Shown here piece after piece: positions 4,468 to 20,576 of a DNA stretch of 38,217 bases. The stretch's first letter is position 1, and every line of letters begins with the position of its first letter. The notes under the pieces are model-generated. The model was not told where the DNA came from. It was given only the letters and a program-made list of their open reading frames with translations, and made no database searches. The position numbers and the translations under genes are program-made. Source of the stretch: Candidatus Tenebribacter burtonii (lineage in GTDB: Bacteria; Cloacimonadota; Cloacimonadia; Cloacimonadales; TCS61); NCBI GenBank assembly GCA_030765625.1, contig JAVCCF010000045.1:1-38217 (forward strand), written 5' to 3'.

Positions 4468-7400
4468 TTATTTTAGTAAAATACACTTCCTTATGAATAA
4501 CTGTAAATCAGCCTGTAATTTATAAAGATAGATACCTGAAGCTATCGAACGATCATCATCATCATCACCATTCCATTCTATTGAATGCTCTCCAGCAGAT
4601 ATTTTTTCTTGGATCAAGGTTTTTATCAACTGTCCTTTCACGTTGAAAATTTGTATCGTAACATCTGAATCCCCAGCAAGATCAAATCGTATGGATGTGC
4701 TGGGGTTGAATGGATTAGGATAATTTCCGTGTAATTTTGTTACTAATGGAATTAATCCATTTCCACTGCTTGTTAATTCAATAGTAACTACATTTGATGA
4801 TTCAGATTCTTGCCCATCAGAATAAATTGCTGTTACATAGTATTCATAAATAGCTATTATAAGGTCTTCGTCTGTGTATGTAAGTTCATTAATTTCAGCA
4901 ATTTCAACTTCATCTCTATATACTTTGTAGGATGTTACTTCTCTTGTAGTTTGGGGCTCATCCCATTCTAAGATAATATCATTATATTCAATTGTATATG
5001 TAAGGTTTTGTGGAGCAAAACAATAGTTCAAAACAACATCTAGAGTAGTAATCTGTTCTGAAATGACTTCTACATTTTCGATTGTTACAGATTCGTATGT
5101 AGGCAAAGAAAATGTTACATCATATAATCCTGGAATTAATTCAGTAGTGTAATATCCTGTTGGGTCAACTGTTACGGTTGTTGTTCCTATTTGAACGGAT
5201 GTAGCATTTACACTTCCAGTTCCACCATTTAAAGTGATCGTACCTTCTAAAATACCGTTGCCTACAGTTTCTCCACCCGAAACGCAGATAACAGCTCCAT
5301 TCCTGCCTCCCATAATCATTTCCCAGGATCCATCACCTGCAACGTCTGGAATTCCGCCAATTGCATCACAGGCTGAACCAACTGGAGTTTGAGAAAGTAT
5401 ATTACCTGTTGCGCCATCCATAAAGTAACCAAAGTTACTGCCGAATAATGTTCCCCAGACAACATCATTGATTCCGTCTCCTGTGATGTCACCGATTTTA
5501 TCTACAACCCAGGGTTGATCTGCCACAGGTTGCAGCCAGATGTTATCACCGGTGTGACCATCAATCACGATTGCATTATCTTGTGTGCTGCGGGCTATGG
5601 CAATATCGGGATGTCCGTTTCCGTTTACATCGTTCAGTTTTTCAAAACGAATGATCAATCCACTTCCAATTGAACCACTCCATTCCATCGATCCATTGGA
5701 TGTATCAATTCCATAGTAATTTCCACCGAAATCTCCAACAACAACATCATTGATCCCGTTTCCGGAAAAATCATCAACTTCTGCCAATGCCCAAACTGAA
5801 CTTCCTCCAGTTGTGAATTCCCAGAGCTGTGAACCATTAGCTCCACTGATTCCCCAGATTTTACCCTCAGTTTCGTAAGAATTGGAACCACCTCCGATTG
5901 CATCAGGAACTCCATCATTATTAATATCGGAAATTCCAATACAACTGAATTTTGGCCCAGCTAAATAAAAATTCCAAAGCTCACTACCGGTTGTACCATC
6001 CAAACACATAACTCTTTGGGCATCACTACCTGTTGCTGCCAAAACATCTTGAATGCCGTCATTATTATAATCATAGGAAACATCTACCTGGTAAACCCAA
6101 CCTCCATCACCACCGTAAATACTTGTATTAAATGTCCAGATCAGTTGTCCGGTTTTCCCGGAAATAGCTCTTACTGCTCTATCTCCGCCAGTTGTACCTA
6201 CTATTACATCATCGTATTCGTCCGAATCAATATCCTCAATAATTTTCAGAGCGTTCTGATTATAGATATTTCCGGAATAGATTTCTGTTTCCCACAGTAC
6301 ATCACCTGTAACAGATGCATTGCCATTAAAGCAGCGCACAAAATTATCTTCAGAACAAATAATGACATCACCAACTTCATCACCGTTGATATCTTCTATT
6401 GGGGTAATTGCTTTAGGGCTGTTGTCATAACCTGTATTTATTGTGTATTGCCAAAGAATAGAACCAATGGCATATTGAGTGTTGTCACCAGTTCCTGTAA
6501 GAGCGATATCGGTAGTAAGTGCAGTAGGATCATTACTGTAGATCGTGCAAGTTGCGTTTATGGTTCCAGAAGATTGTGGATTAAACCAGATCCTGACATC
6601 AACTTCACTGGCGGGTGTAATTATTAGTGGAAGTTCAACAGTTTCATCCAAAATGTATTGAGTGTCGTCAAATTCAAATTGGGTTATTTCTAAATTGCCA
6701 GAACCTTGATTACTAATGTTAAGATATCTTCCAGTCAATGCATCGACCCGTATAGATCCATAGTTTAAATTTGTAGGAGAAATTACAATCTGGGGATCAT
6801 CAGTAACAGCATATCCGCTTAGTGTTACAAGCTCAAATGGATTAACCGGATCATTTGATTCAACGGTTAATATACAACTGTAGGCTCCCCAAACGGAAGG
6901 ATCAAAAATTATCGTTAAATTTTCAGTAGAGCTGGGAGTAATTGTGATCGGAAGTGTTTCATCAGAAGAAAAATCATTCAAAGTAAAATCAAGATTTGTA
7001 ATCATTAAATCTGCAGTTCCAATATTAGTAACAGGAAGCTCAACTGATTCTGGTTGTCCGATAGTAGTATTTCCAAAATTGTAATCATCCCAACCTAACT
7101 CAATAGCAGGTGTACCTACACCACCCAAATCAACTTTATAAAGATAATCAAAACCACCGCTGCCATTGTCACAATACCATAAATATTGTCCGTCGAATAC
7201 AATACCAGCAGGATCAGTTCCTTCAGAAGGATGTGTTTCTAACAGTGTTCCTGTAATCGGATCGATCTTATAAAGAGCATCTCCCCAATAATCAGCCATC
7301 CAGAGGTTATCATTTTCTAAACAAAGATCCCATGGTTGTGCATCAGGAGCTGCGAATTGTTGAATTATAGCTCCGGTATTATCTACTTTGTAGATCTCTC

Positions 7401-7827
7401 CATCAGGATCATAATAAGCAGTTACCCAAAAATCACCGCTATCATAAGCAATACCAGACATGTAGTGTGCTGGGAGGTCAAACTGTGATAAGATTGTTCC
7501 TGAGTTGATGTCTAATTCAATGGCTGTAGCCGGAATGGATGGACTTGTTACGTGATCTGTAATCCAAAGATTTGTTCCATCCCATGTCATTCCAAAACTG
7601 TCTCCAATGTTTGCATTAGAAAATTGAAGCTGATAAGTTCCATCACTTGGATCGATCTGGTAAACTTCATCTCCGTTTGCACCATAAATGCCGCAATAAA
7701 GATAAGTACCATCAAAAGCTAGTCCGGATGCTCCCTCGGGTATCGAGTAAGTTTGTACAATTGTCCACTCTGCTGATATGGGTATTATAATTAGTATGAA
7801 CAATAAAAATAAACATTTCTTTTTCAT
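4468..7827 (-). CDS. Large secreted multidomain protein with FlgD-like C-terminal sorting domain
   Basis: The product has 1119 residues. A signal peptide (1-19, MKKK then a hydrophobic core ending ISA) is followed by a streptogramin-lyase-like propeller (about 20-235) and two ASPM/Hydin-type Ig-like domains (240-342 and 343-447, each with NxG and SNDP motifs). A second FG-GAP/PQQ-like propeller follows (455-855, repeated DxNxDGxxD units such as DINNDGVPD that probably bind calcium), then a carboxypeptidase-regulatory-like beta domain (860-933), a fibronectin III domain (937-1018) and the sorting domain (1032-1119, NYPNPFNPSTSIRF to KCILLK). The ATG at 7825-7827 follows AGAGGGGGG. The protein should be exported and held at the surface by a type IX-like pathway. 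No catalytic residues are evident; a binding or scaffold role is likely but unproven. Confidence 0.88.
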   Translation of the reverse strand: MKKKCLFLLFILIIIPISAEWTIVQTYSIPEGASGLAFDGTYLYCGIYGANGDEVYQIDPSDGTYQLQFSNANIGDSFGMTWDGTNLWITDHVTSPSIPATAIELDINSGTILSQFDLPAHYMSGIAYDSGDFWVTAYYDPDGEIYKVDNTGAIIQQFAAPDAQPWDLCLENDNLWMADYWGDALYKIDPITGTLLETHPSEGTDPAGIVFDGQYLWYCDNGSGGFDYLYKVDLGGVGTPAIELGWDDYNFGNTTIGQPESVELPVTNIGTADLMITNLDFTLNDFSSDETLPITITPSSTENLTIIFDPSVWGAYSCILTVESNDPVNPFELVTLSGYAVTDDPQIVISPTNLNYGSIRVDALTGRYLNISNQGSGNLEITQFEFDDTQYILDETVELPLIITPASEVDVRIWFNPQSSGTINATCTIYSNDPTALTTDIALTGTGDNTQYAIGSILWQYTINTGYDNSPKAITPIEDINGDEVGDVIICSEDNFVRCFNGNASVTGDVLWETEIYSGNIYNQNALKIIEDIDSDEYDDVIVGTTGGDRAVRAISGKTGQLIWTFNTSIYGGDGGWVYQVDVSYDYNNDGIQDVLAATGSDAQRVMCLDGTTGSELWNFYLAGPKFSCIGISDINNDGVPDAIGGGSNSYETEGKIWGISGANGSQLWEFTTGGSSVWALAEVDDFSGNGINDVVVGDFGGNYYGIDTSNGSMEWSGSIGSGLIIRFEKLNDVNGNGHPDIAIARSTQDNAIVIDGHTGDNIWLQPVADQPWVVDKIGDITGDGINDVVWGTLFGSNFGYFMDGATGNILSQTPVGSACDAIGGIPDVAGDGSWEMIMGGRNGAVICVSGGETVGNGILEGTITLNGGTGSVNATSVQIGTTTVTVDPTGYYTTELIPGLYDVTFSLPTYESVTIENVEVISEQITTLDVVLNYCFAPQNLTYTIEYNDIILEWDEPQTTREVTSYKVYRDEVEIAEINELTYTDEDLIIAIYEYYVTAIYSDGQESESSNVVTIELTSSGNGLIPLVTKLHGNYPNPFNPSTSIRFDLAGDSDVTIQIFNVKGQLIKTLIQEKISAGEHSIEWNGDDDDDRSIASGIYLYKLQADLQLFIRKCILLK

Positions 7828-7858
7828 TACACCCCCCTCTTGTAAAATATTAAATATT

Positions 7859-7889
7859 AATATATTAGAAATGTATATAATATTGTCAA
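7859..7889 (-). promoter_or_regulatory. Candidate promoter for the large secreted-protein gene
   Basis: A perfect TTGACA on the minus strand (7884-7889) lies 19 bases from TATATT (7859-7864), or 17 from AATATA. It is about 55 bases ahead of the chosen ATG. The spacing is long for the best -10, so the exact start is uncertain. Confidence 0.45.
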
Positions 7890-8080
7890 ACAGAAATTGA
7901 TGATTTTTTTGCATTGTGTTAATTTATGATTCAAAAAAAAATTAAAAAATGTAAGAAAATTAATATTGCTGAACGGGGGGAATAAAATTCATTTATTAGT
8001 TTACAAAAATGAATATTATAATTATATTTGTAATTAAATTAAAAAGATAATATAAATGAAGTTACCATGACTGAAAGATA

Positions 8081-8107
8081 TTGTCAAAGCAAGAAATGTG
8101 CTATAAT
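8081..8107 (+). promoter_or_regulatory. Candidate promoter for the lipoprotein/barrel pair
   Basis: TTGTCA (8081-8086) is followed after 15 bases by a perfect TATAAT (8102-8107). This would give a leader of roughly 100 bases before the ATG at 8218. The short spacer lowers confidence. Confidence 0.4.
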
Positions 8108-8217
8108 TTTTAAAAAGGATAAATCTAAAACAGAAAAAGCATCATAATATATTGATTTAAAAGAAAATAAGGAAGAGTGAGTGATATTTGTTGTTGACGT
8201 CATTCATAGGAGGATAA

Positions 8218-10269
8218 ATGAAAAAATTGGTTTTAATAACATTTCTGATTCTACTCTTATTTAGTTGTTCAATACCCGAAAATTTGGGCATCCCTACTTG
8301 GACTTCAAAATTTCAGCTATACATTCTGAATGACACGTATGAGGCAATACAATTAGCAGAAGAGGATTCTGTACTTGTTGTTAATGGTGATTCAATTAGT
8401 TTTTACGAAACAATGAGTGAAACTGGTGATCTTGTTTTTTCAACAAATGTAATCGAAGATAATGATAACATAAGTATTGGAAACATTGAGATCGATGATC
8501 CAAATCCAATTGACACAGAAATTCCTTTAAATGAAATTGATCCAACCTTAGTTAATGGCTATATCCCAGCACCGGGAATTCTACCTTTTACGATGCCGGA
8601 TATTCTAAAAGACGATTTGGAACCTTTTGATGAATTTTTAGAAATTCAATTTATTTCCGGACAGATACAGTTTTCTCTAATGAATAATACCGCGATCTGG
8701 ATTGGAAATGTTAATGCAGGAGAACCACTGATAATTCATGTTTTGGATGTAGATGATAATGTGATTCTGATTCATGAATTCTCAGAAGATATTCCACCCG
8801 ATAATACGATTACAATAACTGAATTTGAAAGCCTTGCCGGAGTAACCATGTTTAATGAGATCAAGGTTCTTACAACAGGTGGTAGCAGGGGAACAGAAGG
8901 AGAAGGAGCTACTGTAGATATTGATGCAACGTTAGAAGTTAATATAGCTATTGTAAATCCGATCGCACAATATACAAACGCTCAAATTCCTGAACAAACA
9001 ACTAGTGACACTATATATGTAACTTTAGATGAAGATGTTACAATCTATCAGGCAACGCTTTCATACGACGATCAAAACATTACGATCGATATTGCAAATG
9101 ATATTGACTTGGATATGGTTGCAACGGTTTATATCGAAAAGTTAACTCTACCTACAAATGCCGAATCTTTTACATACACAATGAATATCCCTGCCAGCGG
9201 TGGATTTGGTCAAACTTCTTATGTAACAGAAATTATTAATATTGATGGTGCTATTCTAGGTGATGGCATTACATTGTTAGATAGCCTGAAAATTATAATT
9301 GATGCAATCACAGCTGATACAGGTGATGATTATCGGAAGATAAATTCTTCTGATGTATTCGATATTCAAACAACTATAGATGAGCTTGAATTTGCTTACT
9401 TTCAAGGAATATTAGATCCACGGGAACAAGACGAGGTTACTGGAGATGAAGTCATAGATATTGACTATCCGTATATTACTGGTGAGTTTGCAATTGCCGG
9501 ATACAGTGAAATTCGATTTGTTGTTGATACTTCTGTCCCAGCAATGCTTACTATTGATCTGAATTCTATTAATAGTGATGGAGATATAGAACAATTAGTC
9601 GATATCAATGGTGAAATTCCGATATTGGATATTACCGGAGGTGGAACAATTGTTGTGTTATCTTCGGATGAATACAACATCAATGAATTTATCTCTATCT
9701 TACCTGATAGTGTCTGGTACACTATTTATCCGATTATTGGAGATTCTGAAAATATGATTGAATATAATCAAGGTGATGTGATTGAAACAGAAATCATAAT
9801 AGAAGCACAGCTGGATATCGAAGCTGACTGCTGGGTAATTCCGAAAGATGGGGATGGTAATCCGAGAGTGGAAAAAATCGACACAGAAGATATTGGACAA
9901 ACCGAGATAGATGCTTTTCTAAACGCAAAATTAACTCTCAACTATATTAATACACTCGGATTTGATACCGGTGTCAAAATTTTAATTTCTCAACAAAAAA
10001 CGGATGATTTCACAGAGCTAATAAACCCCGATACAACCTTGTTCACTATTATCAATGTGCCAAATATTATACAATCAACTGGACCTGGAATGGAACAAGT
10101 TGAAATAGAAATAACAAAACATGATTTGGAGTTTTTCCGGAGAGATTCCGTGTTTGTAATTCCTAAGATCCAACTATTTTCAGAAGAAGGAACTCCGTTG
10201 TCTGGTTCGATCGAACTTCAAGCATTAATAGAACTTGAGATAGAAATCAGTAGTGGATTGATGGAATAA
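8218..10269 (+). CDS. Large surface or periplasmic lipoprotein of unknown function
   Basis: The 683-residue product starts with a lipoprotein signal: MKK, a hydrophobic core and a lipobox ending LLFSC with Cys17 as the lipidated residue, followed by Ser. The rest is acidic, rich in Ile, Asp, Glu and Thr, nearly free of Cys, and looks all-beta. Recurrent stretches such as ATLEVNIAI, DIEADCWV and NAKLTLNYI may be repeated beta-sandwich units near residues 240, 540 and 570. AGGAGG lies eight bases before the ATG. The next gene, an outer-membrane barrel, begins only a few bases after the stop, so the two are co-translated and probably work together at the outer membrane. I do not recognise a characterised family. 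Confidence 0.8.
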   Translation: MKKLVLITFLILLLFSCSIPENLGIPTWTSKFQLYILNDTYEAIQLAEEDSVLVVNGDSISFYETMSETGDLVFSTNVIEDNDNISIGNIEIDDPNPIDTEIPLNEIDPTLVNGYIPAPGILPFTMPDILKDDLEPFDEFLEIQFISGQIQFSLMNNTAIWIGNVNAGEPLIIHVLDVDDNVILIHEFSEDIPPDNTITITEFESLAGVTMFNEIKVLTTGGSRGTEGEGATVDIDATLEVNIAIVNPIAQYTNAQIPEQTTSDTIYVTLDEDVTIYQATLSYDDQNITIDIANDIDLDMVATVYIEKLTLPTNAESFTYTMNIPASGGFGQTSYVTEIINIDGAILGDGITLLDSLKIIIDAITADTGDDYRKINSSDVFDIQTTIDELEFAYFQGILDPREQDEVTGDEVIDIDYPYITGEFAIAGYSEIRFVVDTSVPAMLTIDLNSINSDGDIEQLVDINGEIPILDITGGGTIVVLSSDEYNINEFISILPDSVWYTIYPIIGDSENMIEYNQGDVIETEIIIEAQLDIEADCWVIPKDGDGNPRVEKIDTEDIGQTEIDAFLNAKLTLNYINTLGFDTGVKILISQQKTDDFTELINPDTTLFTIINVPNIIQSTGPGMEQVEIEITKHDLEFFRRDSVFVIPKIQLFSEEGTPLSGSIELQALIELEIEISSGLME

Positions 10270-10276
10270 GGTGGAA

Positions 10277-11506
10277 ATGATGAGAAGAATAATAATTACG
10301 ATTTCAATTTTAGTGTTAAGTTATTCATTGTTTGCAAATTTCAATTTTTTTCCTGATAATCCAGCTAACATAGCCAACAGAAATTATTCACAGATCACAT
10401 TTCCAGGTCTTACTTATGAATTTAATGTAAATAACTCTCTCTTAAAATTTGATGATATTAACCTATTCCAAGAAGGCAGAAGATTAAAAGAAAGTGAAAA
10501 AACAATGTTAACAAGTGACAATATTGATTTATATGGAAATTTTAATACCACATTGGTTGATTTTGGCAAAGGAAATTGGAATTTCTCAATAAAAACAATT
10601 GTTACATTCGATGTAGAATTACTGGATAAAATGTACACCAAACTTGTATTTTATGGTAACGAGAATGATGTTGTTTATATCAGTCATAACAGCGAGGGAA
10701 GTAAAGCTTTTGCATTTTGTAAAGCAAGTTTAGATTATGCCTACCCTGAAGCTTTGAATTTGGGAATGATACCCAGGTTATTCCCTTTTGAAACAGAAAA
10801 TAAATTTGTATCTGGGTTACGTGATCTTCCCGTATATGTTGGCGGCAAAATCAATCTTAATTACTCTTTGGTTTATGCAGGAGTAGTTGAAAGCAGACAG
10901 AAATTTGGCACCTTACCCGACAGCACTTTTTATGATATTTATACGCGTTTTCTGCATACTGATGAAGATTATAGCGGAAAACTTAATCCCAGTTTTGGGT
11001 TTGGTCTTAAGGTTCCATTTTACTCTGGATTCTTTCATTTAAGTATGGATAATATTTTTCTTCAATTGCGATATGAAGATCTTGCAGGAGGAGAATATTC
11101 GAAAGTTGTAACTGATTCTCTTCTTTGGCTTCAAGAAGGTCATGAAGCATTTGAATATGAGAATATTGAAAATGATTCGATCCATGCAGAAAGTAAAACA
11201 TTAAAAATTAATCCATCTTTCTGCATAGGTGCAGAATATCAGTTTTTCAACAAACTGGATGTTATGATGCGTTATACTAATAATCAATTTGCTTATATAG
11301 ATAGGTTTTATACTGCAGCGGGCATCCAGTATGGTACAATCCCACTTCAGATAGGACTGGGTTATGACGAAAATGTATACTTTCAGTTTAAAACCGGTTT
11401 AAATTTCAATAAATTTGAATGGATGATTGGATCTACTTTTTATCATGGTTTTTTTCGTTATGCTAAAGGGATTGGATTTCAATCCGCGATAAAGATAAAA
11501 TATTAG
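10277..11506 (+). CDS. Outer-membrane beta-barrel-like protein
   Basis: This protein has about 409 residues and begins MMRRIIITISILVLSYSLFA, a signal peptide. The mature part opens with FFPDNPANIANRNYSQITFPG and continues with alternating polar/aromatic beta strands to a C-terminal KIKY. The layout resembles FCB-group barrel proteins of the DUF5723 type (early asparagine/proline motif, then 10-14 strands); that similarity is from memory of the fold, not a database match. The start is one of two adjacent ATGs (10277 or 10280); AAGGTGG lies just upstream and overlaps the stop of the lipoprotein gene. A perfect 18-bp hairpin ends the transcript. Confidence 0.7.
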   Translation: MMRRIIITISILVLSYSLFANFNFFPDNPANIANRNYSQITFPGLTYEFNVNNSLLKFDDINLFQEGRRLKESEKTMLTSDNIDLYGNFNTTLVDFGKGNWNFSIKTIVTFDVELLDKMYTKLVFYGNENDVVYISHNSEGSKAFAFCKASLDYAYPEALNLGMIPRLFPFETENKFVSGLRDLPVYVGGKINLNYSLVYAGVVESRQKFGTLPDSTFYDIYTRFLHTDEDYSGKLNPSFGFGLKVPFYSGFFHLSMDNIFLQLRYEDLAGGEYSKVVTDSLLWLQEGHEAFEYENIENDSIHAESKTLKINPSFCIGAEYQFFNKLDVMMRYTNNQFAYIDRFYTAAGIQYGTIPLQIGLGYDENVYFQFKTGLNFNKFEWMIGSTFYHGFFRYAKGIGFQSAIKIKY

Positions 11507-11522
11507 AACTGGTAACCAATTA

Positions 11523-11562
11523 TATAATAAACAGCCTGTATGCTTACAGGCTGTTTATTATA
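11523..11562. terminator. Bidirectional terminator between converging genes
   Basis: A perfect 18-bp inverted repeat (11523-11540 with 11545-11562) closes on a 4-base loop. The stem core is GC-containing (ACAGCCTGTA) with A/T-rich arms that serve as U tracts in both directions. The stop codon of the minus-strand gene (11558-11560) lies inside the right arm. Confidence 0.85.
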
Positions 11563-13549
11563 ACAATCCCCATCTTTTTCTGAAAAACAATTCCATACAG
11601 AATACGAATAAGAAGAGAGCGATAAGATACCATTTTTTATAAATTGGGATCTCAAATTTTAATTTGATGATTTCTTTTTTTGCTTTAGAAATCTCAAGAT
11701 CACTCATATTTTCAATAAATTTGCCATTAGTTTTATTTGAAATATAAGATAACAAGGATAGATTTATTCCATTATCTCGACTTTCAGGGGAATTTTGTGA
11801 GATTATGAATTCACCTTCTGTTTGCAAATTAGATATTTTGTCTGAGATTACAAAATTATATTTTCCTGATTGTAGATCAGAAATTTTTATTGAGTGTTTA
11901 TTATTCTCTTTCAAAAAAAAACTTTGATAAACAATTTCACTCTCAGAATTTGTAACAGATATTTCTGCATTCATCTCTGTAATTGGGGAAAGTGTTTCGT
12001 CAAATGCAAGCAGGTTAATATTTATATCTTCACCGAGGTAGAAAGAATTCTTATCTAGTGATGCATAAAACCGATCAGAGCTTGTTTGTCCTAACCAAGA
12101 AAAAATGTTATGCATCAAATTATTATATCTATTATTAGAATTCCACAACTGCCATTTCCAAAGATCTAAGAAAGCAAAATGTAAGATTTTTCCATTCACA
12201 ATATTTTTAAATAATATTGCAGGACTTCTCTCATCATTATTAAATTGTGCAAGTACTTTTGCCTCTATTTTTGAATTAACATAGTAATATGAAACAGGAG
12301 GGATATTCTTTAATTCTTTTTTCTCAACTGAAGAAAACGTGCTAAATTGTTCACTTAGTTTGGTAAGTGCAAAAGTAGATTTAAAAATTCGATTTATACC
12401 GGATGAAATAGCTGGTGAAATATCTTCTAACTCAATTATTGGTTTTCCAACAATGAAAAGGCCTCCGCCATTTCTGACAAATCTATCAATTAATATTACT
12501 TCATTTTCAGAGAAATTTAGATTACCATAATTGATAAGTGTAAGAACATTAATATTATCCATTTCAGTTTCAAAACGTGTACTTTTATTACCAAACTGCA
12601 GCTGGTTCTTTTTCAATAAAAATTTGCTCTGCCAGTGTTGATTGTGATTTACTGCACTAATGATAAATTTTACATCCCAGTTTAAAATATCGGATATTAA
12701 TAAAACTTTAGAATGGTCACGTTTAACCTGAATAGCACTACTAAGGAGATTATTCTCTGTATTTGTTTCAGTAGAATCAGTAGTTATTTTTAAACTGATT
12801 GGAGTAAAACCAGTACTTTGAAATGATGTGTCAAAATTAATTTGCAGGAAATCTATTCCATTAAGATCAACCACTTTTTCATTGATCAACAAATCATTAG
12901 TATAAAGTTCAATTTTTGCTTTACCTTCATAATTTCCAACAGTAATTGTAGCTTCAATCGGTGTGATCTCATTTCTGTAAACTGATTTATTATGTTTAAT
13001 GTCTGTTAATTTAATATCAAAATCATCAGATTGGAAATGAGGGTCAATGGCATAAACTGGGATATTTTGGTTTCCGATCATCTCAAATTCTTCATCATTG
13101 AACCAGCCATCAGAAAGTAAAAAAATAGCTTCAATATTGTTTGAATCAATTTTTTTAAAGACCTGTAAAAATGTTTTGCTCAGGTTCGTAGATGTTTTAT
13201 TACCATTAATTCCATTAGCAAAATCAAAATTGATAATATTATAATCTTTTGATCCGATTATAGTTTCAATTTTATTATTAAAGTCTTTGAAGATTTCAGA
13301 TTTTGTTTGTTTTTTACCAAATTGTTGCATGCTTTCAGAGACATCATTTAGTATAACAACAGAAGGTCTTACAGCTTTATCATGGAAGAAATAGAGTATT
13401 GGATTTAGTAGCAGTAAAAATAAAATTATGATTGCAATAGAACGCAAACTGATCAATAATATTTTTTGCCAGTTATTAATTACAGGGATGGTTTTTTTAT
13501 AAAAAAAAGAGATCAGAATAATTGAGATTATTGCTAATATTATTATCAT
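11558..13549 (-). CDS. Membrane-anchored VWA-like protein with a glutamine-amidotransferase-like segment
   Basis: The product has about 663 residues. Two N-terminal helices (about 1-16 and 29-55) precede a von Willebrand A-like domain with the metal-ion site LNDVSES (Asp69, Ser71, Ser73), a candidate Thr near 121 and LLSDG (Asp147). Beta-rich Ig-like segments follow, then a GATase-1-like part with RNGGGLFIVGKP, another Ig-like part and a C-terminal helix ending in FFRKRWGLL. This architecture matches the large periplasmic VWA membrane proteins found beside BatA/MoxR-type genes, although no such ATPase is present here. I prefer the ATG at 13547-13549, three bases after the upstream stop. A TTG at 13556-13558 is an alternative that would overlap the radical SAM gene. 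Its role is unknown, perhaps envelope stress or assembly. Confidence 0.75.
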   Translation of the reverse strand: MIIILAIISIILISFFYKKTIPVINNWQKILLISLRSIAIIILFLLLLNPILYFFHDKAVRPSVVILNDVSESMQQFGKKQTKSEIFKDFNNKIETIIGSKDYNIINFDFANGINGNKTSTNLSKTFLQVFKKIDSNNIEAIFLLSDGWFNDEEFEMIGNQNIPVYAIDPHFQSDDFDIKLTDIKHNKSVYRNEITPIEATITVGNYEGKAKIELYTNDLLINEKVVDLNGIDFLQINFDTSFQSTGFTPISLKITTDSTETNTENNLLSSAIQVKRDHSKVLLISDILNWDVKFIISAVNHNQHWQSKFLLKKNQLQFGNKSTRFETEMDNINVLTLINYGNLNFSENEVILIDRFVRNGGGLFIVGKPIIELEDISPAISSGINRIFKSTFALTKLSEQFSTFSSVEKKELKNIPPVSYYYVNSKIEAKVLAQFNNDERSPAILFKNIVNGKILHFAFLDLWKWQLWNSNNRYNNLMHNIFSWLGQTSSDRFYASLDKNSFYLGEDININLLAFDETLSPITEMNAEISVTNSESEIVYQSFFLKENNKHSIKISDLQSGKYNFVISDKISNLQTEGEFIISQNSPESRDNGINLSLLSYISNKTNGKFIENMSDLEISKAKKEIIKLKFEIPIYKKWYLIALFLFVFCMELFFRKRWGLL

Positions 13550-13551
13550 GA

Positions 13552-14535
13552 TTACCAATTTTGATCAGCTTGAGCGTTTGTAAAAATAAAATTATCTTTT
13601 TTTAAATAATTATTTATTTTAATGGGCAGATATTTTAACTTTTTTTCTTTTTTTATTTCCTTAAGCATTTGTGAATCGAAACCTTTAAACAATGAAATAT
13701 CACGTGGCGAAATTTCTAGTGTTTTATTTTCAAAACAATTAAGTATTTCAATCTTAAGCATATCAGCTCTTATCAATTCTCCAAATGATTGATGATATGG
13801 TCCTGCTATAATATTTTCTTTATCAATATCCGAATGCAATCCCACTTTAATTACCTTTATTTTTTTTCCTCTAAACCTGTTTATCATTTCTGATGTTATC
13901 AAAATTGATTCTTTCAATGAAAGAGGAGAATAATTTCCTGAATTAAACCAGTTTTCAAGTTCAGTATTTTTTAGTACGATTGTCGGATAGATCCTTACAA
14001 AAGTTGGTTTAAGATTAATAGTTGTTTCAATTGTCGTTTTAAGAGATTCAGAATTAAATCCGGGAAGTCCCGGCATCAATTGAATGCCCAGTAAAAAATT
14101 ATTTTTCTTGATCAGGTTGCAGGATTCTATAGCAGTTCGAGCAATATATCCGCGTTTCGTAGCTTTGAGTACAGAATCGTCAAAACTCTGAATTCCCAGC
14201 TCAATTGTCTGAACGTTGTTTTCTTTACAAAAATCTAAAATTTCCTGATCTATTGAATCGGGTCTGGTAGAAATTCTGATACCGCTTATCAAATCTTTGT
14301 GTTTATTTACTGCATCTAAATATGCTTGTTGCAGTTTAAATGACAGTTTAGTAAATGTGCCACCAAAAAAAGCGATCTCTTTTTCTTCCAATTCATTATT
14401 CTCACAGAATTTTCTTACATTCTCCGAAATTGATTGAACTGAATGGATTTTACTTTTTGTTATTGTCAATTGATCACAATAAATGCAGTTGAAAGGACAT
14501 CCGAGATGAGGTATGAAAATTGGATAAATCTTCAT
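13552..14535 (-). CDS. Radical SAM protein, Elp3-like (COG1243-type) without acetyltransferase domain
   Basis: The 327-residue enzyme has the [4Fe-4S] motif CPFNCIYC (Cys13, Cys17, Cys20) near the N-terminus, then FFGGTF, RISTRPD, ELGIQSFDD and QLMPGLPG. These are the SAM-binding and core motifs of the Elp3/HemN-like radical SAM group. The C-terminal 70 residues do not resemble the acetyltransferase domain of Elp3. The gene starts 13 bases after rnc; a radical SAM gene of this type beside rnc is a recurring arrangement in anaerobes. The substrate is unknown, and RNA modification is only a suggestion. No clear ribosome site is visible, so translation may be coupled to rnc. Confidence 0.85.
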   Translation of the reverse strand: MKIYPIFIPHLGCPFNCIYCDQLTITKSKIHSVQSISENVRKFCENNELEEKEIAFFGGTFTKLSFKLQQAYLDAVNKHKDLISGIRISTRPDSIDQEILDFCKENNVQTIELGIQSFDDSVLKATKRGYIARTAIESCNLIKKNNFLLGIQLMPGLPGFNSESLKTTIETTINLKPTFVRIYPTIVLKNTELENWFNSGNYSPLSLKESILITSEMINRFRGKKIKVIKVGLHSDIDKENIIAGPYHQSFGELIRADMLKIEILNCFENKTLEISPRDISLFKGFDSQMLKEIKKEKKLKYLPIKINNYLKKDNFIFTNAQADQNW

Positions 14536-14547
14536 TATAGTTCAGGG

Positions 14548-15279
14548 TTATAATCCCAATTTGTTACAGGCATGTTTTGCTGCTTCCTGCTGGGCTGCTT
14601 TTTTGCTTAGACCTGTTCCTAAACCATAAGTATTATCTTTTATCAAAACCTTAACCGTAAATATTTTTTCATGTTCCGGCCCCTCAGCTTTTAAAATATG
14701 ATAATCTGGAGCTGCATGGAATTCTGCTTGTGTATATTCTTGAAGCATACTCTTGTAATCTGTTAGATGTCCTTTTTTAAGGTATGTAGAATAATTATTC
14801 AGAATGAATTTAACTATGAATTTTCGAGCTTTTTCAATGTTTCCATCAAGGTAAATTGCGCAGATCAGAGATTCCATTGTATTTGAAAGAATTGAATTTA
14901 ATCCACCTTTTCCTGCTGATTCAGTATTGAAGATTACGTAATCTTTAAGTTTTAATTTGCTTGAAACCAGAGCCAACATCTTCCTCGAAACGATCTTAGA
15001 TTTTAATTTTGAAAGTTCACCCTCGGTATATTCCGAAAATTCAAGAAACAGTTCTTCCGACACGATCAAGCCCAAAACAGAATCACCCAGGAATTCCATT
15101 CTTTCAAAAGGTGATCCCTTTGTATTCAAGGGTTCTCTAGAAGTGTGTGTAAGTGCAGCGATTAGAAGAGAAAGGTTATTAAAATTATAGCCAATGATCT
15201 TCTGAAATTTATTAAGATCAGAATGAGCAGAATCTTTTGTAGATATTTGTGAAATTAGAGATTTAATTATATTTTTCAA
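14548..15279 (-). CDS. rnc: Ribonuclease III
   Basis: RNase III cleaves double-stranded RNA in rRNA precursors and mRNAs. The 243-residue protein has the signature ERMEFLGDS (59-67), supplying Glu59, Glu62 and Asp66, then ILSNTMESLICAIYLD around residue 130. The usual second catalytic Asp is Asn133 here, with Glu136 kept. A double-stranded RNA-binding domain fills 168-243 (ends LSKKAAQQEAAKHACNKL). The start appears to be TTG at 15277-15279: no in-frame ATG occurs before the catalytic motif, and no good ribosome site is seen. The gene lies 30 bases after fabF, the normal end of the fab cluster. Asn at that position is, to my knowledge, seen in other bacterial RNase III proteins, so activity is expected. 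Confidence 0.95.
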   Translation of the reverse strand: MKNIIKSLISQISTKDSAHSDLNKFQKIIGYNFNNLSLLIAALTHTSREPLNTKGSPFERMEFLGDSVLGLIVSEELFLEFSEYTEGELSKLKSKIVSRKMLALVSSKLKLKDYVIFNTESAGKGGLNSILSNTMESLICAIYLDGNIEKARKFIVKFILNNYSTYLKKGHLTDYKSMLQEYTQAEFHAAPDYHILKAEGPEHEKIFTVKVLIKDNTYGLGTGLSKKAAQQEAAKHACNKLGL

Positions 15280-15309: not shown

Positions 15310-16563
15310 TCAATTGTATTTAATAAATTTTTTAAAGATAACTACTCCGTTATGACCACCAAATCCAAGAGCATTACTTAAAGCGTAGTTCACTTCCATC
15401 TCAATAGCTTTATTAGGAATATAATTAAGATCACAAGCTGGATCAGGGTTTTCGTAGTTAATAGTTGGATGCAATTTGCCAGTTGTAATAGATTTACAGC
15501 AAACAATAGCTTCAATAGCAGCAGCAGAACCAAGAGTGTGGCCAATCATAGATTTTGTAGAACTGATCTTTACTTTTCTAGCATACTCACCAAAAACAGT
15601 CTTTATTGCAGCTGTTTCATTCGAGTCATTTAAGAGTGTTGACGTTCCATGAGCATTTATATAATCTATTTCTTCTGGTTTTATTCCAGCATCACTGATA
15701 GCTATTTGCATAGCCCGTGCTCCACCTTCACCATTTTCTGCTGGAGCTGTTATGTGAAAAGCATCGCTAGTAGCACCATAGCCCACTATCTCGGCATATA
15801 TTTTAGCACCACGATTAACAGCATGTTCCATCTCTTCCAAAACTATTACTCCACCACCTTCAGCCATAATAAATCCATCACGCTCTTTATCAAATGGGCG
15901 ACATGCTTTCTGTGGCTCATCATTACGAGTTGATAGAGCTCTCATAGAACAGAATCCAGCTACTGCTAAAGGAGTAACAGAACCTTCAGCTCCACCTGTA
16001 AGCATAATATCTGCATCACCATATTGAATTGAGCGGAATGCAGTTCCAATTGAATGATTTGCAGATGCACAAGCTGAAGAGATATTAAAATTTATGGCTC
16101 TAAGATTAAATTCAATTGCAATTTCTGCAGATGCCATATTGGATATCATTTTAGGAATAAAGAAGGGGCTAACTCTCTTTGGACCTTTTCTCTCCATTTT
16201 ATATGCTTCTGTCTCAAATGTAAGCATACCTCCGATACCAGAAGATACGATTACTCCTGCCCTGTCATGATCAAAATCTACGTTATTCAATCCAGAATCT
16301 TTGAATGCCTGCCTTGCTGCAATTAAAGCATATTGTGTATAATGATCGAGTTTTTTTATTCTCTTTCTCTCAAAATAATCATTTGGATCATAGTTTTTTA
16401 CTTCGCCTGCAATTCTACTTGAATATTCTTCAGTTATTTCAAAATTTGTAATATAATCAACACCGGATTTTCCAGCAAGAAGATTCTTCCATGTATCCTC
16501 AACATTATTTCCAATGGCATTTATTGTGCCCATTCCGGTAATGACAATTCTCCGTTTGTTCAT
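15310..16563 (-). CDS. fabF: 3-oxoacyl-ACP synthase II
   Basis: FabF condenses malonyl-ACP with acyl-ACP during fatty-acid elongation. The 417-residue product has the standard length and all catalytic residues: Cys165 in SSACASANH, His305 in NAHGTSTLLND and His342 in KSMIGHTLGSA with Lys337. The glycine-rich C-terminus ALGFGGHNG is typical. GAGGT precedes the ATG. It lies downstream of acpP, separated by a small hairpin, and upstream of rnc. Confidence 0.97.
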   Translation of the reverse strand: MNKRRIVITGMGTINAIGNNVEDTWKNLLAGKSGVDYITNFEITEEYSSRIAGEVKNYDPNDYFERKRIKKLDHYTQYALIAARQAFKDSGLNNVDFDHDRAGVIVSSGIGGMLTFETEAYKMERKGPKRVSPFFIPKMISNMASAEIAIEFNLRAINFNISSACASANHSIGTAFRSIQYGDADIMLTGGAEGSVTPLAVAGFCSMRALSTRNDEPQKACRPFDKERDGFIMAEGGGVIVLEEMEHAVNRGAKIYAEIVGYGATSDAFHITAPAENGEGGARAMQIAISDAGIKPEEIDYINAHGTSTLLNDSNETAAIKTVFGEYARKVKISSTKSMIGHTLGSAAAIEAIVCCKSITTGKLHPTINYENPDPACDLNYIPNKAIEMEVNYALSNALGFGGHNGVVIFKKFIKYN

Positions 16564-16884: not shown

Positions 16885-17628
16885 TTACATTATTAAACCG
16901 CCATCCACTTGGATGGTCTGACCTGTTATATAACTAGCTTCTTCAGAAGCCAGGAATATACATAAATTTGCTACATCTTTAACTGTACCCATGCGGGATA
17001 ATGGGATAGCAGCTGAATAATTGTCAATAACTTCTTGTGGTAATTTATCAGTCATTTCTGTTTTGATAAAACCGGGAGCAATTGCATTTACTCTAATATT
17101 TCTGGATGCAAATTCTTTTGCAGATGACTTGGTTAGAGCAATGACACCACCTTTGGAAGCAGCATAATTTGCCTGACCGGCATTTCCCATAATACCAACA
17201 ACAGATGCAATATTTAAAATTACACCTGAACGATTTTTTATCATATATCTGCAAACTTTTTGAGTGCAGAGAAATGTACCCTTAAGATTTACATCCATTA
17301 CTGCATTCCAGTCCGATTCCTTCATTTTCATGAGTAATCCGTCTTTTGTAATTCCTGCGTTGTTTATCAGAATATCAATCTTCCCGAATTTCTTATGGAT
17401 CTCTTTAAAAATGGAAGCGATCTCTTCTGAATTTGTTACATCAGCAGCGAAACCAATAGCTTTGTTTCCCATGTCGTCGATCTTCTGAACTGCAATATCT
17501 ATAGCTTCTTGATTAAGATCAATTATAATAGAAATTGCACCATGCTCAGATAACATTTCTGCGATGCTGAAGCCAATACCTCGAGCAGCTCCGGTAATGA
17601 TTGCAACTTTATCTTCTAAACGTTTCAT
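16885..17628 (-). CDS. fabG: 3-oxoacyl-ACP reductase
   Basis: FabG is the NADPH-dependent ketoreductase of fatty-acid elongation. The 247-residue SDR has TGAARGIG (12-19), NNAG (89-92), Asn114 and the catalytic Ser142, Tyr155 and Lys159 (YAASK). The C-terminus [12 protein letters not shown] is family-typical. The ATG overlaps the fabD stop by 4 bases and has GGAG upstream. Confidence 0.97.
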
Positions 17629-18566
17629 AACGTCTCCAAATCATTTTTTACAAGTTCAAACGTCTTGATTGTGTCGATACTTATAACTTTGATATTCTTG
17701 TCAATTTTCTTTAACATTCCAGCAAGCACTTTTTTGGGTCCGAATTCAATAAAAGTGTTCACACCTGCTTCGATCATGAAATTAATTGAATCAACCCAGA
17801 GAACAGATGAAGTAACTTGTTTTGCAAGATTTTTTTTTATTTCATTAATATCTGTAACAGGTTTTGCATTCACATTGGAAACTACTGGAATAGTTGTCTC
17901 ATTAAAATTAATTTTATTCATTTCTTTAGAAAGCCAGATTGCTGCCTTTTGAATAAGAGGAGAATGAAAAGGACCACCTACAACAAGTGGGACCACTCTT
18001 TTTGCACCTCTTTCTTGTGCAATCTCACAAGTTTTTTCAACTCCGGCTTTAGAGCCGGATATCACAGTCTGGACAGGTGTATTGAAATTTGCTGCGATTA
18101 CAATATCAATCTTAGAAGCTTCTTCACAAATAGCTTTCGCTTCATCCGAAGAAAGACCAATAATGGCAGCCATTGCGAAAGGTTTACCTTCATTTGCTTT
18201 GATCATGAATTCACCGCGTTTATGAACAAGAAACATTGCATCTTCTAAAGTAAGAACACCATTTGCAACAAGAGCAGAGAATTCACCTAACGAATGTCCT
18301 GCCACATAATCCGGGATGATATTGATCTTTTTAAGAACAGTATTTAAAGCAGCAATACTATGAAATAAAATTGCTGGTTGAGTAAATTTTGTTTCTTTAA
18401 GTTTTTCTTCCGGTCCTTCGGACATGATTTTACATAAATCAGTATTATTATTAATATCGAAATTTTTAAGAATATTCTCAAGCTCAACATTACTTTTAAT
18501 AAAATCCATAGCCATACCGACATATTGAGCACCCTGACCAGGAAAAATAAAAGCGATTTTACTCAT
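17625..18566 (-). CDS. fabD: Malonyl-CoA:ACP transacylase
   Basis: FabD loads malonyl groups from CoA onto ACP. The 313-residue protein opens with FIFPGQGAQYVGM and has the nucleophile elbow GHSLGE (Ser92) and His201 in GGPFHSPL, which complete the catalytic dyad. The length is standard. AAGGA lies upstream of the ATG, 17 bases after fabH. Confidence 0.97.
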   Translation of the reverse strand: MSKIAFIFPGQGAQYVGMAMDFIKSNVELENILKNFDINNNTDLCKIMSEGPEEKLKETKFTQPAILFHSIAALNTVLKKINIIPDYVAGHSLGEFSALVANGVLTLEDAMFLVHKRGEFMIKANEGKPFAMAAIIGLSSDEAKAICEEASKIDIVIAANFNTPVQTVISGSKAGVEKTCEIAQERGAKRVVPLVVGGPFHSPLIQKAAIWLSKEMNKINFNETTIPVVSNVNAKPVTDINEIKKNLAKQVTSSVLWVDSINFMIEAGVNTFIEFGPKKVLAGMLKKIDKNIKVISIDTIKTFELVKNDLETL

Positions 18567-18582: not shown

Positions 18583-19578
18583 TTAAATTCTAATTAATAA
18601 ACTTCCAGATGTAAGACCAGCTCCAAAAGAAGCCATAAGCACTATATCACCATGACGTATTTTTTTGTTTCGAATTGCTTCATCCAAAGCCATTGGAATA
18701 GTAGCGGAGGAAGTATTTGCATATTTTTCAATATTTACAATTACCTTCTTTTCATCTATCTTCATTTTTTTTCCTAAAGCCTGAATAATTCTTAAATTTG
18801 CTTGATGTGTAATTAGCCAGTCAATAGAATGTACATCAAGATGATTTCTTTTTAACACAATATCACAAGCACTGTACATTGAGCGAATTGCATTTTTAAA
18901 TATTTTATTGCCTTCCATATAAACAGTATGAAGGTTTTCTTTCACAGTTTCTTCAGTTGCAGGCATACGTGAACCGCCAGCATTTTGAATTAATAGATCA
19001 TAATGTGTACCATCAGCAGAGAGTTCAGAATCAATAAATCTGGAAATATCTTTTTCTCCAGCACGAGATATTATTGTTGCTCCTGCTCCATCTCCAAAAA
19101 GAATACATGTTCCACGATCTGTCCAATTAGTTATCTTGGTTAATATCTCAACACCAACAATCAGAATATTCTTTGCAACTCCGGTTTCGATATACTGTTT
19201 TGCAATATTAGCAGCATATATCCAACCAGTACAACCAGCTGAAACATCGAAAGCTGGAAAATCTTTCAGTCCTAATTTTTGCTGCAAAATACAAGCGGTT
19301 GATGGGAATGGATGATCACCGGATATGGTAGCCACAATGATCATATCGATATCTTTAGTTTTAATTCGGGCAGCCTTGATAGCTTTTATTGTAGCTTCAT
19401 AAGCCAGATCAGATGCAGCTTGATTGTCAGCAGCAAGATGTCGTTCAGACATTCCTGTCCTAGTTCTTATCCATTCATCAGTAGTATCTACTATTTTTTC
19501 CAGATCAGAATTGGTTAGAATTTTATCCGGTACATACATTCCGGTTCCTGAGATTTTTGCATAATATTTAATACTCAT
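18583..19578 (-). CDS. fabH: 3-oxoacyl-ACP synthase III
   Basis: FabH starts fatty-acid synthesis by condensing acetyl-CoA (or a branched starter) with malonyl-ACP. The 331-residue protein has the complete triad Cys116 (DVSAGCTGW), His258 (THQANLRI) and Asn288 (YANTSSATIP). GAGGAG precedes the ATG. The gene begins two bases after plsX ends, so the two are expressed together. Confidence 0.97.
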   Translation of the reverse strand: MSIKYYAKISGTGMYVPDKILTNSDLEKIVDTTDEWIRTRTGMSERHLAADNQAASDLAYEATIKAIKAARIKTKDIDMIIVATISGDHPFPSTACILQQKLGLKDFPAFDVSAGCTGWIYAANIAKQYIETGVAKNILIVGVEILTKITNWTDRGTCILFGDGAGATIISRAGEKDISRFIDSELSADGTHYDLLIQNAGGSRMPATEETVKENLHTVYMEGNKIFKNAIRSMYSACDIVLKRNHLDVHSIDWLITHQANLRIIQALGKKMKIDEKKVIVNIEKYANTSSATIPMALDEAIRNKKIRHGDIVLMASFGAGLTSGSLLIRI

Positions 19579-19580
19579 GT

Positions 19581-20576
19581 TTATTTCTCCTCAAAATACT
19601 CTTTTGTGTGTTCCACGAATCCTGATCTTGCCAGATGTGCAGCAAGTCCAACAGCATTTTTTATTGCCTTTGCATTTGATCTTCCATGAGAGACAACTGA
19701 AATCCCGTTAAGTCCTACAAGTAGAGCACCACCGTATTCTGAATGATCTAATTTCTTTTTTAAATATGCATATGCCGGAAAAGATAGAAGTGCTCCTAGT
19801 TTTGCTATCCAGTCTTTCTTCATCTCACTTTTGAGAATCGACATTATTGAATAAGCTGCACCTTCAATAGTTTTGAGCATAACATTGCCAACAAATCCAT
19901 CGCAGACAACAACATCTACGATACCTTTTAGCAAATCTTTTCCTTCAATATTTCCAACAAAATTAATATCTTTATTTTCTTTTAACTTAACATATGTATT
20001 TTTAACCAGCTCATTTCCTTTTGTTTCTTCTTCACCGATATTTAATAAAGCAACTCTTGGATCATCAGTTTTGAAAAAGAACTTAAAATATAGACTTCCA
20101 AGGATTGCATATTGAACCAAGTTTTCCGAAGTACATTCTACATTTGCCCCGACGTCAAGAATGATCTCGGGATGAAATTGAGTTGGGAATGTGGTTGCAA
20201 TAGCGGGGCGAAGAATATTATTAACTCTTCCATAACCAAAGAGAGAAGCAGCCATTACTGCACCGGTATTCCCTGCACTTACAACAGCCTGAACCGTTCC
20301 ATCTTTATGTAATTGGATAGCTCTAACTAAGGAAGAATCCTTTTTCTTTCTAACCACACGTGATGGAGAATCGCTCATACTAATCACTTCAGATGCATGA
20401 GCAATTTCTATTTTATCTTTTGGATAATAGTATTTTTCTAGTTGTTTTGATAGTACGTCTTGTTTGCCCACAAGATATACTTTGTCGCAAAGTCCTTCCT
20501 TAATTGCAATAATTGCACCTTCCACTTCAGGGAAAGGTGCATTATCGCTGCCAAAGGCATCAATCGCTATATGCAT
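19581..20576 (-). CDS. plsX: Phosphate acyltransferase PlsX
   Basis: PlsX converts acyl-ACP to acyl-phosphate, the donor used by PlsY in phospholipid synthesis. The 331-residue product has the family blocks AIDAFGSDNAP at the start, SAGNTGAVMA, LDVGAN and VCDGFVGNV, and ends in the usual SNAKAIKNAV region. It follows rpmF by 19 bases, the common bacterial order. No clear ribosome site precedes the ATG. A weak AT-only inverted repeat (about 20589-20606) spans the rpmF stop and may influence initiation. Confidence 0.96.
   Translation of the reverse strand: MHIAIDAFGSDNAPFPEVEGAIIAIKEGLCDKVYLVGKQDVLSKQLEKYYYPKDKIEIAHASEVISMSDSPSRVVRKKKDSSLVRAIQLHKDGTVQAVVSAGNTGAVMAASLFGYGRVNNILRPAIATTFPTQFHPEIILDVGANVECTSENLVQYAILGSLYFKFFFKTDDPRVALLNIGEEETKGNELVKNTYVKLKENKDINFVGNIEGKDLLKGIVDVVVCDGFVGNVMLKTIEGAAYSIMSILKSEMKKDWIAKLGALLSFPAYAYLKKKLDHSEYGGALLVGLNGISVVSHGRSNAKAIKNAVGLAAHLARSGFVEHTKEYFEEK

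Follow-up and report, generated by a model that had tools for sequence, protein, structure and literature searches.

Two papers of 2025 described the extracellular part of the β-barrel assembly machinery (BAM) of Bacteroidota and reached the wider Fibrobacterota–Chlorobiota–Bacteroidota (FCB) group through the distribution of homologues (PMC12611786, PMC12578637). In the accessible portions of these papers, BamG is a FadL-family barrel that is bound to BamA and anchors the lipoprotein BamH, whose highly conserved amino-terminus packs onto BamG, and BamG2 and BamH2 are placed in a putative operon (PMC12611786, PMC12578637); the same portions of the first paper report conservation of BamG and BamH in six of the seven other FCB phyla and do not mention Cloacimonadota by name (PMC12611786). 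The present analysis concerns a lipoprotein gene (LIP) and an outer-membrane barrel gene (BAR) of Candidatus Tenebribacter burtonii, located on contig JAVCCF010000045.1 of assembly GCA_030765625.1 (contig C31 in our numbering), the whole 38,217 nucleotides of which are referred to as the window. The host is a Candidatus Cloacimonadota metagenome-assembled genome of 2.81 Mb and 98% completeness. LIP is divergent from the gene of a large secreted protein (SEC), a cargo of the type IX secretion system (T9SS), and an earlier note on this DNA had proposed that the barrel and the lipoprotein hold or export SEC. A survey of 124 genomes of the phylum, many of them incomplete, showed that LIP and BAR constitute one co-directional gene pair, mostly single per genome, in most Cloacimonadota genomes. 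The pair reaches further than the earlier note had assumed. The reading we favour, at somewhat less than even confidence, is that it forms a barrel-anchored surface platform which would assist in folding, assembling or holding large proteins of the cell surface.

Distribution and organization of the pair

LIP preceded BAR on the same strand in all 41 loci counted. The tight spacing pointed out earlier (BAR begins 1 nt after LIP in the window) was found in the relatives as well, as 39 of the 41 gaps lay between -32 and +25; the outliers were -86, corresponding to an over-long open reading frame (ORF), and +337 in genome G075, whose LIP has a stop. This LIP (L111:4573-6186) is split by the stop into open frames of 418 and 106 amino acids (aa). 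Six further loci (L180 and L184-L188), left out of the gap and neighbour-background counts and read separately for order and neighbours, also carried LIP and BAR in this order (here and below, G, L, g and f denote genomes, loci, genera and families in our numbering). LIP was detected in 26 of the 124 genomes, and in 84 with a profile of the order-level relatives (union, 97), with one copy in most genomes and several in G118. BAR was detected in 41 genomes, seven of them without a LIP match.

LIP or BAR was present in 104 genomes, of which 62 had no detected SEC. The presence of SEC was scored from rows with E < 1e-100 among at most six candidates per genome, and a missing SEC is to be read as undetected and not as proof of absence; an orthologue of the SEC propeller region was found in 48 genomes, 42 with LIP or BAR and six with neither detected (G069, G072, G074, G085, G110, and G119). 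A strict tie of the pair to the SEC gene was thus contradicted by its wide presence without a detected SEC. The comparison of co-occurrence and gene order across relatives that the earlier note had suggested bore out the order LIP-BAR but placed SEC beside LIP in only 16 of the 42 genomes that have both. The three genes themselves were found where that note had located them, and its sizes for SEC with its sorting tail, for the acidic lipoprotein and for the intergenic region, which is exact when SEC is counted from Met 7827, were confirmed (Table 1).

Table 1. Coordinates of the pair, of SEC and of the neighbouring genes in the window.
Feature	Position	Strand	Basis
SEC, 1119 aa, T9SS type A cargo	4468..7827	-	ORF, domain scans, sorting-domain match
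SEC T9SS type A sorting domain	4483..4722	-	TIGR04183, 38.5 bits, cut-off 23
Divergent SEC/LIP intergenic region, 390 bases	7828..8217	.	between SEC Met 7827 and LIP ATG
LIP, 683-aa acidic lipoprotein, long form	8218..10269	+	ORF, lipobox, conserved N-terminus
BAR, 411-aa predicted FadL-fold outer-membrane barrel, remote DUF5723 relative	10271..11506	+	ORF, profiles, model
VWA membrane protein, conserved neighbour of LIP-BAR	11558..13558	-	domain scan
Radical SAM protein, conserved neighbour	13552..14535	-	domain scan, relatives' loci
rnc (ribonuclease III)	14548..15279	-	domain scan, relatives' loci
fabF-type ketoacyl synthase	15310..16563	-	domain scan, relatives' loci
fabG	16885..17628	-	domain scan
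fabD	17625..18566	-	domain scan
fabH	18583..19578	-	domain scan
plsX	19581..20576	-	domain scan

Sequence of LIP and BAR and predicted fold of BAR

LIP is strongly acidic (127 Asp and Glu against 22 Lys and Arg), with a lipobox-like Cys at residue 17. The stretch after the lipidated Cys follows roughly the pattern C..P.W...L..PL.N..Y...L in nearly all rows across the phylum. Across the phylum, LIP measures between about 504 and 1300 aa; in the window's family, the difference is due to an internal stretch that some members have and others lack. The two LIP groups, i.e., that of the window's family and that of the order-level relatives, were found to be homologous by profile comparison (98.7%, E 3.1e-16). 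Two length classes of LIP (∼540 and ∼680 aa) occur within one genus (L091-L116) and look exchanged between genera. The members scanned matched no family; the earlier statement that none of the three proteins has a recognisable function therefore stands for LIP, but not for SEC, with its known domains, nor for BAR, with a FadL-type fold and a remote DUF5723 relationship.

The longest ORF of BAR begins with GTG, and ATG 10280 is the likely start because most homologues begin there. The AlphaFold2 (AF2) model of BAR, built from 12 rows, had a predicted local distance difference test score (pLDDT) of 77.4 and a predicted template modelling score (pTM) of 0.75. Its best structural matches were FadL and TodX, with VIA-align Z of 20-21 (top match, Z 21.2, root-mean-square deviation (rmsd) 4.1, 266 residues aligned). 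Three Bacteroidota BAM complexes each had one chain that matched with Z 18.2-19.7 and rmsd 5.2-6.2; these chains were taken to be BamG, because the papers call BamG their FadL-family subunit. In two T9SS translocon entries, chain F, which we take to be PorV, matched with Z 19.0-19.4 and rmsd 6.7-8.3. The NPA motif of FadL was observed in 50 of 51 BAR homologues, at residue 30 in the window, about seven residues past the probable signal peptide (cleavage judged by eye), and at residues 44-47 in 12 of 17 order-level barrels. The predicted FadL-type barrel fold together with the N-terminal NPA places BAR in the FadL superfamily. BAR matched neither PF03349 (Toluene_X) nor the PorV and PorQ models.

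The barrels of the window's type and those of the order- and class-level relatives were homologous by hhalign (99.8%, E 2.4e-29). Among the latter, some matched DUF5723 (PF18990) over the cut-off (barrels of L146, L179, L187, and L189; E 1.3e-8 to 1.2e-21), including two f13-type homologues that matched nearly over the full length (E 6.6e-20 and 1.2e-21), while scans of the L148 and L173 barrels with PF18990 gave no match. PF18990 matched neither the window BAR nor anything found by search of the window's genome; BAR is hence related to DUF5723 members at the profile level and not by a direct match. The BAR of G116 (L188:4582-8079) is a single open frame of 1165 aa in which NPA lies at residue 784; it may be a fusion or an ORF that was called too long.

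Genomic neighbourhood of the pair and its relation to SEC

The genomic setting of the pair is well conserved. In the 12 loci read in families f3-f11, the 5′ gene was the radical SAM gene and the 3′ gene was that of the von Willebrand factor type A (VWA) protein, each in 11 of the 11 loci where it is visible; longer stretches read fabF(KAS, ketoacyl synthase)-rnc-radicalSAM-LIP-BAR-VWA, and no sorted gene was found beside LIP-BAR in these loci. In f2, VWA followed BAR in five of five loci, and radical SAM preceded LIP in three of five. The VWA label is given with a VWA_CoxE match of only 12.6 bits, under the cut-off, and a DUF3244 match just over it. In much of the window's family, LIP-BAR is inverted to face VWA, with its 5′ side free, and in the window the block runs on as fabF, fabG, fabD, fabH, and plsX. 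The position beside fabF-rnc in f2-f11, or opposite this block in much of the window's family, the conserved NPA motif and the predicted closeness to FadL and TodX are all consistent with the main rival explanation, in which BAR would be a FadL-like channel that moves phospholipid or fatty acids across the outer membrane or within it, LIP its surface lid or donor, and the plsX-fab location a reflection of that lipid role. We consider this channel unlikely: the block also has the unrelated rnc and radical SAM genes, and BamG, in the accessible portions of its description, is an example of a FadL fold that does not have to serve lipid transport (PMC12611786).

In the window's family and in f13-type loci, the 5′ gene of LIP often encodes a sorted protein, and four or more unrelated kinds of such proteins occur there. 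Of these, SEC is divergent from LIP in the 16 genomes mentioned above, directly in 14 of them (window's family); adjacency in G099 and G076 was read from match coordinates, and only the 5′ part of SEC lies on the contig of G066. In G082, G087, and G089 (L196, L195, and L197), a giant scaffoldin-like protein of one cluster, with a frame ending in a T9SS sorting domain, is divergent from LIP, its cohesin and PKD repeats being shown for G087. This fits the cohesin scaffoldin of Ca. Stygibacter, which in the accessible part of its description bears an attachment domain at the C-terminus, for which a T9SS review is cited (Williams et al. 2021, PMC8542988). LIP is preceded by two sorted genes in G067, by a heparinase-like sorted protein in eight of nine f13-type loci with a visible 5′ gene (two f13-type loci sit in genomes of the window's family), and by a gene in G018 that counts only weakly as sorted. 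Non-sorted 5′ neighbours are the radical SAM gene, a TrmB-type gene between SEC and LIP in G100 and G101, and genes in G020, G083, G091, G092, and G116. Like G100 and G101, the distant G118 has a TrmB-type regulator flanking SEC, and all three genes belong to one cluster (L109:6227-7060, L116:5424-6257, and L129:5070-5933). A link of the pair to other sorted proteins, which the earlier note had also raised, was thus found in the cohesin giants, the heparinase-like genes and the G067 genes.

The frequency of sorted neighbours has to be judged against the abundance of T9SS cargo. Portions of a published paper indicate that T9SS may occur in Cloacimonadota (PMC11285876). The channel SprA was found in the window's genome (523.8 bits, with neighbours), in 115 of the 124 genomes, and in 70 of 70 good genomes, and the window's genome harbors at least 149 T9SS type A sorting domains (scored for 150 of the 177 candidates); owing to this abundance, it is not rare for a given gene to have a sorted neighbour. 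In the fetched loci, with LIP, SEC, and cohesin genes left out, sorted proteins made up 26 of the 442 upstream neighbours and 7 of the 78 divergent ones, and the first set had 29 among its 491 non-SEC genes; the pattern 5′ of LIP was recognized post hoc. The several sorted kinds against the upstream background, the universal SprA of the good genomes and the match of the BAR model to the T9SS translocon chains could be accommodated if the pair were a T9SS accessory, with a PorV-like shuttle and a surface lipoprotein serving sorted cargo generally. This is rather improbable in our view, as none of the PorV models matches BAR, a different protein of the genome belongs to the PorV family (86.4 bits, cut-off 90), and the gene 5′ of LIP in f3-f11 is invariably radical SAM where visible. 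At L194 (G000:C25), a PorV/PorQ-family protein just under the cut-off lies beside an OmpA protein, which resembles PorE under the cut-off, and an adjoining giant of 3038 aa or more that looks sorted.

SEC itself was classified as a T9SS type A cargo by its sorting domain, the SprA-bearing genome and a signal peptide judged by eye. Its longest ORF (4468-7914, minus strand) gives 1148 aa from the first ATG, and the signal-peptide Met gives the 1119-aa form. Por_Secre_tail and FlgD_ig both scored above their cut-offs; two ASH/HYDIN-type Ig domains and a PQQ/FG-GAP propeller region were found, the N-terminal part appears propeller-like by eye, and CarboxypepD_reg and fn3 matches were both under the cut-off. 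Promoter-like sites in the SEC/LIP intergenic region were at the chance level (five, against a mean of 5.2 in shuffles). In the class-level family f13, SEC lies 3′ of ClpB and a GroEL-like gene in eight of ten loci with a visible 5′ gene (L129-L132, L136, L137, L140, and L141), with a small ORF intervening in one, and ClpB, Hsp20 or HtrA genes occur in the fetched SEC stretch of L091, L107, L110, and L122 of the window's family; the sorted propeller protein thus shows a conserved link with chaperone genes in f13 and part of the window's family. A second T9SS-sorted protein of the window (29482-32103, plus strand) has 873 aa with Ycf48-like repeats and an F510_1955-type glycosylhydrolase match under the cut-off.

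The shared history of these genes was evaluated by distances and trees, with SEC trimmed to its first 900 residues. Distance correlations over 17 genomes were 0.85 for LIP-BAR, 0.82 for SEC-BAR, and 0.67 for SEC-LIP, and over nine genomes with VWA 0.94 for LIP-BAR, 0.80 for SEC-VWA, 0.71 for SEC-BAR, and 0.53 for SEC-LIP. As its correlations fall below that of LIP-BAR, SEC is more loosely tied to the group, though not independent of it. The trees of LIP, BAR, and SEC joined the window and its sister G095 to genus g3 (G066 and G065; also G090 in the BAR tree), and the VWA tree set them among g1 rows; g3 had no VWA in the fetched loci and is missing from that tree. The window LIP is 67% identical to that of G066 against 35-38% to congeners other than G095, with corresponding values of 55% against 45-49% for BAR and 84% against 62-77% for SEC, and its VWA is 73-75% identical to those of G097, G100, and G101. 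Since the VWA placement and identities differ from those of LIP, BAR, and SEC, a block with LIP-BAR, probably including SEC, appears to have been exchanged between genera, which favours linkage as a cassette. For the SEC-LIP arrangement, the BAR tree gave three label changes and the VWA tree two, both with open forks, so its gain and loss could not be ordered.

The earlier model, in which LIP and BAR are a complex dedicated to holding or exporting SEC, can draw on this apparent en bloc swap of SEC, LIP, and BAR, on the divergent adjacency in part of the genomes, on the SEC-BAR correlation, and on the adjacent and readable loci, which pair long LIP with long SEC (five genomes) or short with short (six). 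It is nonetheless very improbable. SEC is distant or undetected in most genomes having LIP-BAR, G085 has SEC without the pair, the non-adjacent G083 and G091 combine long and short forms, and SEC distances follow VWA better than LIP. In G101 and G093, SEC grouped outside the clade of its own LIP, and such different descent argues against functional dependence. SEC is not an obligate partner of LIP-BAR and has a partly separate history. With the pair widely present without SEC and its sorted neighbours varied, the SEC-specific part of the proposed surface complex was not supported, and a general link to sorted or surface proteins is possible.

Proposed role and comparison with known systems

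In the surface-platform reading that we prefer, BAR in the outer membrane would anchor LIP on the cell surface, the conserved LIP N-terminus could pack against BAR by analogy with that of BamH on BamG, and the platform would help large surface proteins to fold, assemble or stay held. SEC would then be one of the many T9SS cargoes and a neighbour of the pair, with other sorted proteins occupying its spot in other lineages. A more detailed version seems less likely still: Cloacimonadota would own a DUF5723-like lipoprotein-barrel machine beside fatty-acid and phospholipid genes, with a BamG-BamH-like surface role in folding or docking giant sorted proteins, whose neighbouring cargo genes (SEC, cohesin scaffoldin, heparinase-like) are swapped between lineages and whose two-length-class LIP-BAR alleles are exchanged between genera.

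Several observations weigh against the platform. The AF2 model of LIP was poor (pLDDT 41, pTM 0.29, 10 rows), and as LIP could not be modelled, we infer its surface position and its contact with BAR. At least two acidic residues within the first six after the lipidated Cys, the surface export signal in Bacteroidota, were found in only 12 of 41 LIP rows with a recognised lipobox (seven rows set aside), and the window LIP has one by eye. In Foldseek, the best E for the BAR model was 8.7e-7 but with a template modelling (TM) score of 0.37 and rmsd 13, a poor superposition. Against solved chains, the BAR profiles gave no match up to E 10, and so none to BamG or PorV; the LIP profile of the window's family likewise gave none up to E 10, and so none to BamH; and the one chain matched by the other LIP profile was unrelated (E 0.044). 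Several barrels are negative for PF18990, BAR does not have an N-tail longer than that of FadL, the fab setting suits a lipid role equally, and the SEC-BAR distance correlation is high. Moreover, searches found no LIP-BAR in G085, a genome 92% complete in which SEC directly follows VWA and a 59-aa tautomerase-like ORF, named by eye (L123:3197-3587), fills the place of LIP-BAR; the pair is therefore not strictly essential.

A phylum-wide gene pair of a FadL-fold barrel and a lipoprotein beside core biosynthetic genes, with sorted cargo in two families, is a candidate for the surface building of Cloacimonadota. No paper on DUF5723/PF18990, and none on Cloacimonadota with outer membrane and lipoprotein, was found in the literature searched. 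In the window's genome, two Toluene_X places under the cut-off were considered as BamG and rejected: one is a 470-aa barrel with no lipoprotein-like ORF adjoining by eye and the other a PorV-family protein, and against solved chains one gave no match up to E 10 and the other only a Cas6b chain (E 0.73).

Compared with known systems, LIP-BAR resembles BamG-BamH in the combination of a FadL-fold barrel with a large lipoprotein, in the conserved N-terminus right after the lipidated Cys, and in its phylum-wide distribution. It differs in that BAR is DUF5723-like and not of the Toluene_X family and lies at a fab locus, and most LIP rows do not show the two acidic residues in the first six after Cys. 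The length of FadL's own N-tail serves as the yardstick for the longer tail of BamG, which threads the lateral opening. As the tail and sequence tests failed, the pair was not classed as BamG-BamH. With FadL and TodX, BAR shares the closest predicted structure and an NPA near the N-terminus, but it has no PF03349 match and comes with a lipoprotein gene. Its FadL-type fold, its T9SS host and the sorted genes often nearby in two families are reminiscent of PorV, from which it differs in matching no PorV model and in coexisting with a separate PorV-family protein. The nearest family is DUF5723, which some order- and class-level homologues match over the cut-off and the window BAR does not match directly; this family has no function, and a surface role of LIP-BAR would be its first functional lead.

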